From Corticibacter populi (GTDB lineage Bacteria; Pseudomonadota; Gammaproteobacteria; Burkholderiales; Burkholderiaceae_C): a stretch of 64,000 nucleotides of DNA. The stretch is taken from positions 612,414 to 676,413 of the forward strand of contig NZ_SGWR01000002.1 of assembly GCF_004217315.1 (NCBI RefSeq), written 5' to 3'. The number at the start of each line of letters is the position of its first letter. Within the stretch, counting starts at the first letter, position 1. The notes under the pieces are model-generated. The model was not told the DNA's origin, did no database searches, and saw only the letters and a list, made by a program, of their open reading frames with translations. Position numbers and translations under genes: made by a program. Positions 51,143-61,666 of this stretch are shown here, piece after piece.

Positions 51143-52417
51143 TCAGCCGGCCAGCGGCGAGACGCTGCCCGGCCGGCCGGGCAGGTGCAGGCTGGCCACC
51201 GGCGCGGGCGTGCTGGCGATCAGCTTGCCCGCCTTCCAGACCTTCAACCGCGTCGCGCGCAGGCGGATCGCCTCGACCGGATCGCGCGCCTGCAGCAGCA
51301 CGAAGTCGGCCTTGGCGCCGACTTCCACCCCGTAGCCCTGCAGGCCCATGATGGCTGCTGGCGTGGTGGTGACCGCCTCGAAGCACTGGCGCATCGCCGC
51401 CTGGCTGGTCATCTGTGCCACGTGCAGGCCCATGTGGGCGACTTCGAGCATGTCGCCGCTGCCGAGGCTGTACCACGGGTCCATCACACAGTCCTGGCCA
51501 AAGGCGACTGGAATGCCGGCCGCCAGCAGCTCAGGTACGCGCGTCATGCCGCGGCGTTTCGGATACGTATCGTGGCGGCCTTGCAAGGTGATGTTGATGA
51601 GCGGATTGGCAATCGCCGCGACGCCTGCCTCCCTCATCAACGGCAGCAGCTTGGAGACGTAGTAGTTGTCCATGCTGTGCATCGAGGTCAGGTGCGAGCC
51701 GGCGATGCGGCCCTGCAGACCCAGGCGCTGCGCTTCATAGGCCAGGCTTTCGATGTGGCGGCTGAGCGGGTCGTCGCTTTCGTCGCAGTGCATGTCCACG
51801 CGCAGGCCGCGCTCGGCCGCCAGCTCGCACAGCCAGCGCACGCTCTCGGCGCCGTCTGCCATGGTGCGTTCGAAATGCGGGATGCCGCCGACCACGTCCA
51901 CGCCCATGTCGAGAGCGCGAATCAGGTTGGCCTTGGCGCCGGGGCTGCGCAGCAGGCCGTCCTGCGGGAAGGCAACGAGTTGCAGGTCGATGTAGGGCTT
52001 GACGCGCTCCTTGACGTGCAGCAGCGCCTCGGTCGCCAGCAGGCGTGGATCGCACACGTCCACATGGCTGCGAATCGCCAGCAGCCCGCGCGCCGCTGCC
52101 CAGTCGCAGTACGCCAGCGCGCGCTCGATGATGGCGTCTTGCGTCAGCAGCGGCTTGAGCTCACCCCACAGCGCAATGCCTTCGAGCAGCGTGCCGCTCT
52201 GGTTGACGCGCGGCAGGCCGTAGCTGAGCGTCGAATCCATGTGGAAGTGCACGTCGACGAACGGCGGCGCAAGCAGCAGCCCGCTGGCGTCGGCCTGCTC
52301 GGCGGCCTCGGCCTGCAATGCGGGCTCGATGGCGGCGATGGTGCCATCCTGTACGGCCACGTCCTGGCCAGTGCGACCATCGGGCAGGTTCACGTTTCGG
52401 AGGATCAATTCGAACAT
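51143..52417 (-). CDS. codA: Cytosine deaminase-type amidohydrolase (CodA-like)
   Basis: This 424-residue metal-dependent hydrolase resembles E. coli CodA over its whole length. Metal and substrate residues are seen at His57/His59 (VHFHMD), Gln152 (FPQDG), His210 and Glu213 (HCDESDD), His242 (HLTSMHS) and Asp309 (FGQDCVMDPWY). In E. coli the next residue is Asp314; here it is Cys310, and the preceding His is Gln. That region shapes substrate choice, so isocytosine or another pyrimidine/pterin could be the true substrate. It is the last gene of the transport/URC array, 66 bases after permease 2, and would feed uracil into that pathway. Confidence 0.85.
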   Translation of the reverse strand: MFELILRNVNLPDGRTGQDVAVQDGTIAAIEPALQAEAAEQADASGLLLAPPFVDVHFHMDSTLSYGLPRVNQSGTLLEGIALWGELKPLLTQDAIIERALAYCDWAAARGLLAIRSHVDVCDPRLLATEALLHVKERVKPYIDLQLVAFPQDGLLRSPGAKANLIRALDMGVDVVGGIPHFERTMADGAESVRWLCELAAERGLRVDMHCDESDDPLSRHIESLAYEAQRLGLQGRIAGSHLTSMHSMDNYYVSKLLPLMREAGVAAIANPLINITLQGRHDTYPKRRGMTRVPELLAAGIPVAFGQDCVMDPWYSLGSGDMLEVAHMGLHVAQMTSQAAMRQCFEAVTTTPAAIMGLQGYGVEVGAKADFVLLQARDPVEAIRLRATRLKVWKAGKLIASTPAPVASLHLPGRPGSVSPLAG

Positions 52418-52483
52418 TTCAACGCTCCTTGGCGCGCAGTGAAAGAAGGCGGAAGCGGTGCAGCCGCCCGGGGGATGTCGCTA

Positions 52484-53410
52484 TCATCGCTCCCCCTTGC
52501 GGTAGGGTTTCATCAAGGCCTGCGGGTAGCTGGCGCGGCGCGCCATCACCACCAGTGCGACGATGGAGAGGATATACGGCAGCATCAGGTAGAGCTGGTA
52601 GGGCAGCAACCCGCCGCCGCTGCCTTGCTGCAGGCGCAGTTGCAATGCATCGAAGAAGGCAAAGAGCAGCGCGCCCAGCAAGGCCTTGCCGGGCCGCCAC
52701 GAGGCGAATACCACCAGCGCCACGCAGATCCAGCCGCGGCCGTTGACCATGTTGAAGAAAAACGCATTGAACGCCGCCAGGGTCAGGAAAGCGCCAGCGA
52801 CACCCATTAACGCCGAGCCGGCCACGATGGCGCCGGTGCGCACCCACGCCACCGGAATGCCCTGGCTTTCAGCCGCCTGCGGGCTCTCGCCCACCATGCG
52901 CACTGCCAGCCCCAGTGGCGTGCGCATCAGCCCATAGGCCAGCAGCGGCACCAGCAGCAGCGCCAGCAGCGTCAAGGGCGTTTGCGCATTCAGCACCGGA
53001 ATCGGCAGCCAGTCCATGGCCGCGAAGGGCGTGATGGTGGGTGGCGTATCGACGCGCGGGAGCTGCACGCGGTAGGTGTAGTACGCCAACGACGTCGCCA
53101 GCATGGTGATGCCCAGGCCCACGACGTGCTGCGACAGCGCCAGGCCGACGGTCAGCGCCGCATGCAGCAGGCCGAGAACGGCACCGGTCAGTGCAGCGGC
53201 CAGCACGCCGGTCCACAGGCCGTGGCCGGCATACACGGTGAGCCAGCCGACGAAGGCGCCGGCGACCATGATGCCTTCGATGCCCAGGTTGAGCACGCCA
53301 GCGCGCTCGCACAGCAGCACGCCCAGTGTGCCCAGGATCAGCGGCGTGGCGATGCGCAATACCGCCACCCAGAATGGCAGGCTGATGAGGGTGTCGATCA
53401 GTTCTTGCAT
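52484..53410 (-). CDS. ABC transporter permease 2, nucleobase/nucleoside type
   Basis: This 308-residue membrane protein has eight to ten helices and belongs to the BmpC/NupQ (YufQ) branch: the segment LGVLLCERAGVLNLGIEGIMVAGAFVG and PLGLAVRMVGESPQAAESQGIPV are diagnostic. It pairs with permease 1 (53749-54819) and the double ATPase to import nucleosides or nucleobases delivered by the BMP protein. ATG 53410 is the family start. A 338-bp repeat-bearing gap separates it from permease 1. Confidence 0.9.
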   Translation of the reverse strand: MQELIDTLISLPFWVAVLRIATPLILGTLGVLLCERAGVLNLGIEGIMVAGAFVGWLTVYAGHGLWTGVLAAALTGAVLGLLHAALTVGLALSQHVVGLGITMLATSLAYYTYRVQLPRVDTPPTITPFAAMDWLPIPVLNAQTPLTLLALLLVPLLAYGLMRTPLGLAVRMVGESPQAAESQGIPVAWVRTGAIVAGSALMGVAGAFLTLAAFNAFFFNMVNGRGWICVALVVFASWRPGKALLGALLFAFFDALQLRLQQGSGGGLLPYQLYLMLPYILSIVALVVMARRASYPQALMKPYRKGER

Positions 53411-60411: not shown

Positions 60412-60421
60412 GTCTGCTCCC

Positions 60422-61666
60422 TCACTCGTTCAGCCCGCGGCCCTTGGCCTGCGCCAGTTCGTTCGCATCGGGCACCCAACTGGAGAAATAGCCGGCCGCC
60501 ACCTTGGCATCCATCTCGACGCGCGCATCGGCGGGAATCAACGCATCGGGAATCGGCACCCGCTCGACCACCTCGATGCCTTGCTGCACCAGCGCGTCGT
60601 GCTTCATGTTGCTCATCGAGGCCCAGCGGTCGATGCGGGTGATGCCCAGCCAGTGGAACACGTCGGGCATCAGCTCCTGGAAGCGCATGTCCTGCACGCC
60701 GGCCACGCATTCGGTGCGGGCGAAGTAGGTTTCGGCACGGTCGCCGCCCTGCTGGCGCTTGCGTGCGTTGTAGACCAGGAACTTGGTCACCTCGCCCAGC
60801 GCGCGGCCTTCCTTGCGGTTGTAGACCACCAGCCCCACGCCGCCCTGCTGCGCCATCTCGATGCAGACCTCGATGCCATGCGCCAGATACGGGCGGCAGG
60901 TGCAGATGTCGGAGCCGAACACGTCCGAGCCATTGCATTCGTCGTGCAGGCGGCAGGCCACGCGGGTTTCGGGCCTGCCCAGTTGCGCCACATCGCCGAA
61001 CAGATACAGCGTCATGCCGCCGATGGGTGGCAGGAACACCTTCAGATCCGGGCGCGTGACCAGTTCGGGGAACATGCCGGCGGTCTGCTCGAACAGCGCA
61101 CGGCGCAGCGCGCTCTCCTTGATCTGGAAGCGCTCGGCCACGCCCGGCAGGTACCAGACCGGGTCGATGGCCGCCTTGGTCACCTTCACATCGCCATTGG
61201 CGTTCAGGATGTCGCCATCCGGCGTGAGGCGCCCGGCCGCGATGGCGCCCAGCAGCTCGGGCATGTTGATGTGCGCCTTGGTCACGGCAATGGTGGGGCG
61301 GATATCCTCGCCGGCGGCGATGCGCTCGGCAAATTCCGCGGCCACCAGATGGCCCCAGGGGTCCATCGAGACGATGCGTTGGGCATCCCGCCACTGCGGG
61401 TGCGGGCCGATGGCCGCCGCCGGGCTGGTGTCCGTCAGGTCCGGGCGGTGATCCGCCTGCAGGCGTCCGGCCGCAATGGCCAGCGCCCGGTACACCGCAT
61501 ACGCGCCCGAGTGCGAGCCGATGGCGTTGCGCTGTGCCGGGGTCGTGAGGCTCGCGATGATGGGCCCGCGCTCGGCGGCGGTGGAAGCGCCCCAGTGAAT
61601 CTGCGTGCCTGTCAGCGCATTGCGCTGCGTCTGCGGATGGGAAGTGAGGACGATATGGGAAGACAT
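60422..61666 (-). CDS. GTP-cyclohydrolase-II-like protein, uracil catabolism URC1
   Basis: This 414-residue protein has an N-terminal part of about 200 residues unique to the URC1 group and a C-terminal GTP cyclohydrolase II domain. The zinc ligands are Cys244, Cys255 and Cys257 (C-x10-C-x-C), and YNRKEGRALGEVTKFLVYNARKRQQGGDRAETY corresponds to the substrate loop of RibA. RibA has only about 200 residues and no such N-terminus, so this is not a riboflavin gene. AGGAG lies 6 bases before ATG 61666. It heads the array behind a RutR-box-like palindrome. Confidence 0.88.
   Translation of the reverse strand: MSSHIVLTSHPQTQRNALTGTQIHWGASTAAERGPIIASLTTPAQRNAIGSHSGAYAVYRALAIAAGRLQADHRPDLTDTSPAAAIGPHPQWRDAQRIVSMDPWGHLVAAEFAERIAAGEDIRPTIAVTKAHINMPELLGAIAAGRLTPDGDILNANGDVKVTKAAIDPVWYLPGVAERFQIKESALRRALFEQTAGMFPELVTRPDLKVFLPPIGGMTLYLFGDVAQLGRPETRVACRLHDECNGSDVFGSDICTCRPYLAHGIEVCIEMAQQGGVGLVVYNRKEGRALGEVTKFLVYNARKRQQGGDRAETYFARTECVAGVQDMRFQELMPDVFHWLGITRIDRWASMSNMKHDALVQQGIEVVERVPIPDALIPADARVEMDAKVAAGYFSSWVPDANELAQAKGRGLNE

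Follow-up and report, generated by a model that had tools for sequence, protein, structure and literature searches.

A URC-type pyrimidine operon in Corticibacter populi, with a predicted RutR-paralogue operator and URC4 as a probable Qng1-like N-ribosyl hydrolase

The closest described systems to the gene array reported here are the URC route of uracil degradation in yeasts, the Rut pathway of Escherichia coli with its regulator RutR, the bacterial UTP cyclohydrolase, and the queuosine-5'-monophosphate N-glycosidase Qng1. According to the available part of PMC2174524, the genes for URC1, URC4, and uracil phosphoribosyltransferase are clustered and induced by uracil in Schizosaccharomyces pombe. 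Work in Lachancea kluyveri, as summarized in the accessible text of PMC7530994, assigned the conversion of ribosylurea to urea to URC4, and the urea is split by the urea amidolyase URC3/URC5. A nine-gene array with bacterial members of these families was analyzed in Corticibacter populi, in a window of 64,000 nucleotides (the whole stretch of DNA examined, C2:612414-676413) from a genome of 4.2 Mb in 9 contigs with a completeness of 99.68%. With a probability of about 0.74, the array is an operon, controlled by a RutR paralogue, for taking up cytosine and uracil and degrading them hydrolytically through the URC route, with URC4 acting as a glycosidase. A wider view is also considered probable, namely that DUF1688/URC4 forms a nucleotide-catabolic branch of the Qng1 superfamily with a queuosine-salvage-type cleavage of (phospho)ribosylurea common to bacteria and fungi, and that two uracil pathways with different chemistry coexist in this genome, each with a RutR paralogue of its own next to it. 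The mechanism of URC4 is the newly predicted part, while the operon type was already known and the activity of URC1 is known from a close relative.

An AF2 structure model of URC4, built from an alignment of 50 relatives, had a pLDDT of 90.8 and a pTM of 0.90. When the model was compared by Foldseek with 350,542 PDB chains, all 11 matches at E≤1e-3 were Qng1/DUF2419 proteins of bacterial or human origin (E 5e-9 to 2e-7, probability 1.00, and TM 0.72-0.76 on the Qng1 length), and the next match had an E-value of 0.3. The single URC4 protein had zero matches at E≤1 among the PDB sequences, and a profile of the 50 relatives had four at E≤10, all of them DUF2419/Qng1 (E 0.014 to 0.12). Counted along the printed profile alignment, residue K199 of Qng1 (K199C in the title of 7U5A) falls on K307 of URC4, and D231 (D231N in 7ULC, where the N is visible in the row) falls on E338; both K307 and E338 are invariant in 50 of 50 relatives. 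The printed alignment ends before D298 and W302, which the available part of PMC11592518 names as the active-site pair of Qng1, and the invariant W410 of URC4 is a candidate counterpart. Together, the fold, the matching residues, and the position in the pathway point to N-glycosidic cleavage, and URC4 is most likely an N-ribosyl hydrolase that splits (phospho)ribosylurea into urea and ribose phosphate. The protein falls outside Qng1 by the defining hidden Markov model (HMM), yet it most likely works like Qng1, as judged from the model. Scans with PF10343 found Qng1 in 0 of 60 relatives and in 0 of 398 sampled genomes of the phylum, the control being silent in both scans. No paper linking DUF1688 with Qng1 was found in the literature searched (subscription papers were outside its scope), and the statement of a first-pass annotation of this DNA that the action of URC4 in bacteria is largely unexplored holds.

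The same annotation had described bacterial URC1 as equally unexplored, which proved incorrect. The closest PDB entries to URC1 are 7EEV ("Structure of UTP cyclohydrolase") and 7EJ3 ("UTP cyclohydrolase"), with 67% identity over about 395 columns and 609 bits by phmmer for the two best PDB sequences, and the protein scored 781 bits against NF005536 (cut-off 403) and 280 bits against PF12471. In alignment with E. coli GTP cyclohydrolase II (GCH II), C244, C255, and C257 fall on C54, C65, and C67, which we take to be zinc ligands, and D326 and R328 fall on D126 and R128; each of these residues is invariant in 30 of 30 sequences. The URC1 structure model was of low confidence (pLDDT 69.7) and was used for PDB matches and titles alone. 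Judged by sequence, the activity of URC1 is known from its close relative UTP cyclohydrolase, on which a 2021 ACS Catal paper is listed as a URC reference in the available part of PMC12507026.

The arrangement was followed across genomes by scanning genome contigs with a four-sequence URC4 alignment. At least 589 stretches were matched, of which 587 were confirmed; among the taxa in their titles are Burkholderiales, Alphaproteobacteria, Cyanobacteria, and Rhodococcus. The best 80 loci were kept, a sample that leans toward close relatives and in which some loci are cut by contig ends. Of these loci, 79 carry urc1, 75 upp, 36 codA, 27 tetR, and 21 bmp. The full nine-gene order occurred in 11 loci when sorted by gene end, one in Caldimonas and ten in Cupriavidus (nine when sorted by the start of the open reading frame, as overlong frames shift two loci); a urc1-urc4-upp-tetR-codA arrangement was found in 14 further loci, and urc1-urc4-upp alone in 27. 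Because the same linkage recurs at the 80 related loci kept, chance linkage is excluded. The array type is widespread, and such operons are of a kind already known; proteins of this type on plasmids carry the NCBI name "URC4/urg3 family protein". With the source genome included, URC4 scored above the cut-off in four of 274 genomes sampled from the class (five at E≤0.001), 11 of 300 from the order (12 at E≤0.001), and one of 10 from the genus, the latter being the source genome alone.

Neighboring genes were clustered for 70 of 84 urc4-bearing loci, with the exclusion of 13 additional Cupriavidus loci together with the copy from the window, and 38 clusters were present in at least four of the 70. 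Ten cluster representatives scanned against Pfam were mainly transporter parts, TPR, HerA, MpsC, and similar proteins. The representative of a short-chain dehydrogenase/reductase cluster was FabG-like, with members at scattered positions. Four loci, all of them Alphaproteobacterial, have a deoB gene for phosphopentomutase (502 bits in L082, cut-off 256) ahead of urc1 in the same orientation: directly upstream in L063 (7408-8628), L070 (7428-8651), and L082 (7246-8502), and about 3 kb away in L071 (4393-5643). These neighbors fit a ribose phosphate product of the pathway. Additionally, the URC genes are rearranged in a Gammaproteobacterium metagenome-assembled genome (L085:10001-18334), where the importer genes share the orientation of urc1 and the opposite strand carries urc4 and upp. 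Matches to DUF1688 below the threshold were seen in 385-residue frames at G132:C1:16532-16786 (L005) and G565:C31:66719-66979, covering profile positions of about 156-243, and these are possible distant relatives. At G365:C3:29810-31105, a two-piece DUF1688 match with a lower score than the others lies inside an open frame of 641 residues.

The regulator encoded in the array belongs to the TetR family, and it scored 157 bits against PF08362 (YcdC/RutR C-terminal region). Its scores of 193 bits against the RutR model TIGR03613 (cut-off 368) and 171 bits against NF011584 (cut-off 230) remained below both RutR equivalog cut-offs. The nearest PDB entry is E. coli RutR (3loc, 153 bits), with which it shares 39% identity. 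Residues W77, W167, and Q171, presumably the uracil contacts of the RutR pocket, were kept in all 14 proteins compared with E. coli RutR, which were the regulator of the window, the other RutR of the genome, and the regulators of 12 of the 27 TetR-bearing loci. In a tree of 15 proteins, a branch with a support of 1.0 parted two RutRs from 13 URC-linked regulators. On this evidence the linked regulator is a RutR paralogue by sequence; the first-pass wording of a "RutR-like" sensor was correct, while plain "RutR" would not be.

A RutR-type box, TTGACCGATCGGACAA, was located at 61698-61713, within a palindrome upstream of urc1 that is the predicted operator of the linked regulator. The pattern TTGACCnnnnGGTCAA, which we take to be the consensus of the E. 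coli RutR site, was sought in the upstream regions of 83 urc1 genes, one in the window and 82 in other loci (L001, which duplicates the window, and loci that lack urc1 were excluded), each region spanning 250 bp before to 30 bp into urc1. Matches of at least 9 of 12 positions were present before urc1 in 28 of 28 regions with a linked TetR gene vs. seven of 55 without one. At 10 or more of 12 positions, the counts were 27 of 28 vs. three of 55 (Fisher p 2e-17), an association weaker than the p-value suggests because 16 of the 27 TetR-bearing loci are Cupriavidus. In the same scan, the rutA-rutR intergenic region of E. coli K-12 contained a 10/12 site, and that of the source genome a 9/12 site at best. 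A genome-wide box scan with one mismatch was uninformative, as it gave 54 and 50 matches vs. 73 and 69 for the reversed pattern. Within the same literature scope, no paper describing RutR with a URC operon in bacteria was found.

The nine genes lie contiguously between 61666 and 51143, all on the minus strand, in the order urc1, urc4, upp, tetR, bmp, atp, perm1, perm2, and codA (Table 1). All genes named in the first-pass annotation were found in this single-strand run with HMM support, the four enzymes above curated cut-offs and the transporter parts above theirs in Pfam, and its pyrimidine-catabolic reading was upheld along with the gene identities. Its description of the array as complete was generous: the core genes are present, but no gene for handling urea or malonic semialdehyde lies within the array, and urease is encoded elsewhere in the genome.

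Table 1. Features of the array in window coordinates; the higher coordinate of each gene is its predicted start, chosen by reading.
Feature	Coordinates	Strand	Basis
urc1, predicted UTP cyclohydrolase (GTP cyclohydrolase II-like)	60422..61666	-	NF005536, PF12471, PDB identity
urc4 (DUF1688), predicted (phospho)ribosylurea N-ribohydrolase, Qng1 fold	59098..60411	-	PF07958, AF2 model, Foldseek
upp, uracil phosphoribosyltransferase (URC6 equivalent)	58376..59008	-	TIGR01091 257 bits (cut-off 208), PF14681 248 bits
tetR, TetR regulator, RutR paralogue by sequence	57708..58364	-	PF08362, TIGR03613 below cut-off
bmp, BMP/PnrA-type substrate-binding protein	56569..57561	-	PF02608 139 bits
atp, ATPase of the ATP-binding cassette (ABC) type	54816..56396	-	PF00005 148 bits, 2 stretches
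perm1, ABC permease 1	53749..54819	-	PF02653 136 bits
perm2, ABC permease 2	52484..53410	-	PF02653 115 bits
codA-type cytosine deaminase	51143..52417	-	NF005748 802 bits (cut-off 438)
Near-perfect 26-bp palindrome with RutR-type box, predicted TetR operator	61693..61718		31 bp before urc1 start

URC4 matched PF07958 with 477 bits (cut-off 25). Intergenic gaps computed from the chosen coordinates are 146 bp between tetR and bmp, 172 bp between bmp and atp, and 338 bp between perm1 and perm2, so the run is uninterrupted but loosely packed and a single transcript is putative. The array is flanked by a divergent leuS upstream (837 bits, cut-off 548) and by rimI downstream. No sigma-70-like site was found before urc1 in a promoter scan of 50900-62100, terminator-like sites in the same scan were at chance level, and an Rfam scan of 50000-63000 gave no match above the gathering score. 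The perm1-perm2 spacer (53411-53748) contains a 24-nt inverted repeat at 53486-53509 that occurs once in the window and may be an interspersed element.

The importer has the parts of a BMP/PnrA-type system: one BMP binding protein, two BPD_transp_2 permeases, and an ATPase in which two ABC stretches were recognized. Among PDB entries, the binding protein is closest to 3s99 (122 bits) and to 6pi5, an atrazine-binding protein (121 bits), vs. 54 bits for 6y9u and 34 bits for 2fqw, which we take to be nucleoside-binding types. Free bases are the likeliest cargo, as predicted from gene content, because the array encodes Upp and CodA but no nucleoside-cleaving enzyme. Importer-amidohydrolase units with no URC genes within about 12 kb were also observed on two plasmids, of Roseateles sp. 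XES5 and Azospirillum ramasamyi (L098:11748-17660 and L099:11875-17720).

A Rut cluster is present in the same genome. RutA (691 bits), RutB (397), RutD (323), RutF (255), and RutC (243) all scored over their cut-offs, and the rutABCDF cluster at L092:6655-10447 (approximately 803650-807450 of G000:C2) stands beside a divergent rutR gene at L092:10846-11496. This second RutR scored 299 bits against TIGR03613, below the cut-off, and 274 bits against NF011584, over the cut-off, and the two RutR paralogues of the genome are 42% identical over 187 aligned residues. Neither rutE nor rutG was among the scanned neighbors of the cluster, and a genome-wide search for the two was not made. Next to the cluster (L092:11478-17383) lie genes for a PucR regulator and for another BMP-type ABC importer, separate from that of the URC array. 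A complete Rut or reductive (PydA) pathway elsewhere in the genome had been named in advance as an alternative explanation of uracil use; the Rut part of this is present with RutA, B, C, D, and F. For the PydA part, the one model searched, NF006183, which we take to be the PydA-type model, had two weak matches of 47 and 38 bits in the genome (cut-off 335; its partner subunit was not searched for). Urease was identified by its alpha (963 bits) and gamma (175 bits) subunits and UreG (338 bits). Among 300 genomes of the order, RutA exceeded its cut-off in two and URC4 in 11, and both occurred together in the source genome alone. Similarly, RutA exceeded its cut-off in none of the 27 genomes with URC genes and TetR, 24 of which had weaker matches (149 bits at best). 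Since rutABCDF and a second RutR are present, uracil use need not depend on URC.

In the proposed pathway, the BMP ABC system would import the free base, CodA would deaminate cytosine to uracil, and Upp would join uracil with phosphoribosyl pyrophosphate into UMP, which housekeeping kinases would convert to UTP. URC1, as a zinc enzyme of the GCH II fold, would then hydrolyze the ring C-N bonds N1-C6 and N3-C4; that both bonds are cut is suggested by comparison with GCH II and by ribosylurea being the intermediate. Its products would be the C3 unit, as malonic semialdehyde, and N-ribosylurea phosphate. Using E338 and K307 in the manner of D231 and K199 in Qng1, URC4 would hydrolyze the N-glycosidic bond of the latter to give urea and ribose phosphate, and urease would free ammonia from the urea. 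Repression at the palindrome before urc1 would be lifted when the regulator binds uracil or a related base in its W77/W167/Q171 pocket. Because no step predicted for URC needs O2 or a redox cofactor, the likeliest division of labor would assign Rut to ample and URC to scarce oxygen.

Several observations weigh against this reading, besides the Cupriavidus share in the box test. Three printed profile alignments between URC4 and Qng1 each consist of two collinear stretches, with E-values of about 6 and 31-40, and the residue at the catalytic position is E in URC4 vs. D in Qng1. The Pfam family Q_salvage (PF10343) did not match the URC4 of the window; it matched nine of the 50 relatives (best E 0.0044) and left the remaining 41 unmatched. 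When the C-terminal part of URC4 (27 sequences) was searched against the PDB, Qng1 was not found, and the one match had an E-value of 1.1. The substrate of Qng1 is a 5'-monophosphate, but URC1 acting on UTP would yield a triphosphate product. Among the recurrent neighbors (10 of the 38 cluster representatives scanned), neither a urea-splitting enzyme nor a phosphatase or ribokinase was recognized. The deoB neighbors could indicate a phosphorolytic rather than hydrolytic URC4 step, or they may equally represent an old salvage gene beside upp. Additionally, uracil catabolism could be carried by the rutABCDF genes found elsewhere in this genome.

This last point underlies the alternative that Rut is the working degradation route here and that the URC array is a lately gained or redundant unit, or one mainly for salvage and import. 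It is a serious but doubtful possibility: rutABCDF and rutR are present, URC4 is confined to the source genome in the genus, codA, upp, and the importer could serve salvage by themselves, and the importer-amidohydrolase units on the two plasmids stand apart from URC genes. However, every URC reading frame is open, the regulator and box are retained, urc1 and urc4 head the operon, and URC usually occurs without Rut, as seen in the 27 URC- and TetR-bearing genomes and in the two RutA vs. 11 URC4 genomes of the order.

It is less probable still that the URC pathway is real but that URC4 performs other chemistry on a Qng1 scaffold, for example a phosphorolysis that yields ribose-1-phosphate, or a hydrolysis of the ureido group with ammonia and CO2 as products. 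The faint sequence likeness to Qng1, the E in place of D, the invariant segments that are URC4's own, and deoB beside urc1 in four loci are in its favor; the deoB product interconverts ribose-1-phosphate and ribose-5-phosphate. This alternative has to contend with the alignment of both Qng1 residues of the deposited mutants with invariant URC4 residues, and with the yeast assignment of ribosylurea to urea summarized in the accessible text of PMC7530994, a conversion that amounts to an N-glycosidic cleavage. The automatic NCBI name of URC1, GTP cyclohydrolase II, would imply pterin- or flavin-type products, and the GCH II domain and zinc-type cysteines are indeed retained; this assignment was dropped as highly improbable, given 67% identity to UTP cyclohydrolase vs. 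18-19% to E. coli GCH II and the presence of urc1 beside urc4 in 79 of 80 loci.

The glycosidase reading of URC4 concerns a family that is still filed as DUF1688, of unknown function, although it occurs in hundreds of bacteria (at least 587 confirmed stretches) and in fungi. The fold match to a characterized N-glycosidase with key residues turns its action into a testable enzyme question. In turn, the co-occurrence of Rut and URC in one genome, with a separate RutR paralogue next to each, offers a natural test of why bacteria keep a hydrolytic route at the level of UTP.

Compared with the described systems, the array shares URC1, URC4, and uracil phosphoribosyltransferase with the URC genes of L. 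kluyveri and the urg genes of S. pombe. Unlike the yeast systems, it is prokaryotic and adds a RutR-like repressor, an ABC importer, and a cytosine deaminase, and unlike L. kluyveri, the source genome has urease (urea carboxylase was not searched for). Its URC1 is close to the bacterial UTP cyclohydrolase of 7EEV and 7EJ3, at the 67% identity given above. URC4 resembles Qng1/DUF2419 in its fold and in the equivalents of K199 and D231, but it differs in sharing 13-18% identity, in having E for D, in being about 100 residues longer, in lying outside PF10343, and in its linkage to uracil genes. With the Rut system of E. coli, the array has in common a TetR regulator homologous to RutR, the residues of its pocket, and the type of operator. 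The chemistry sets the two apart, as the ring opening proposed for URC would be hydrolytic and at the nucleotide level, whereas Rut relies on a flavin monooxygenase.

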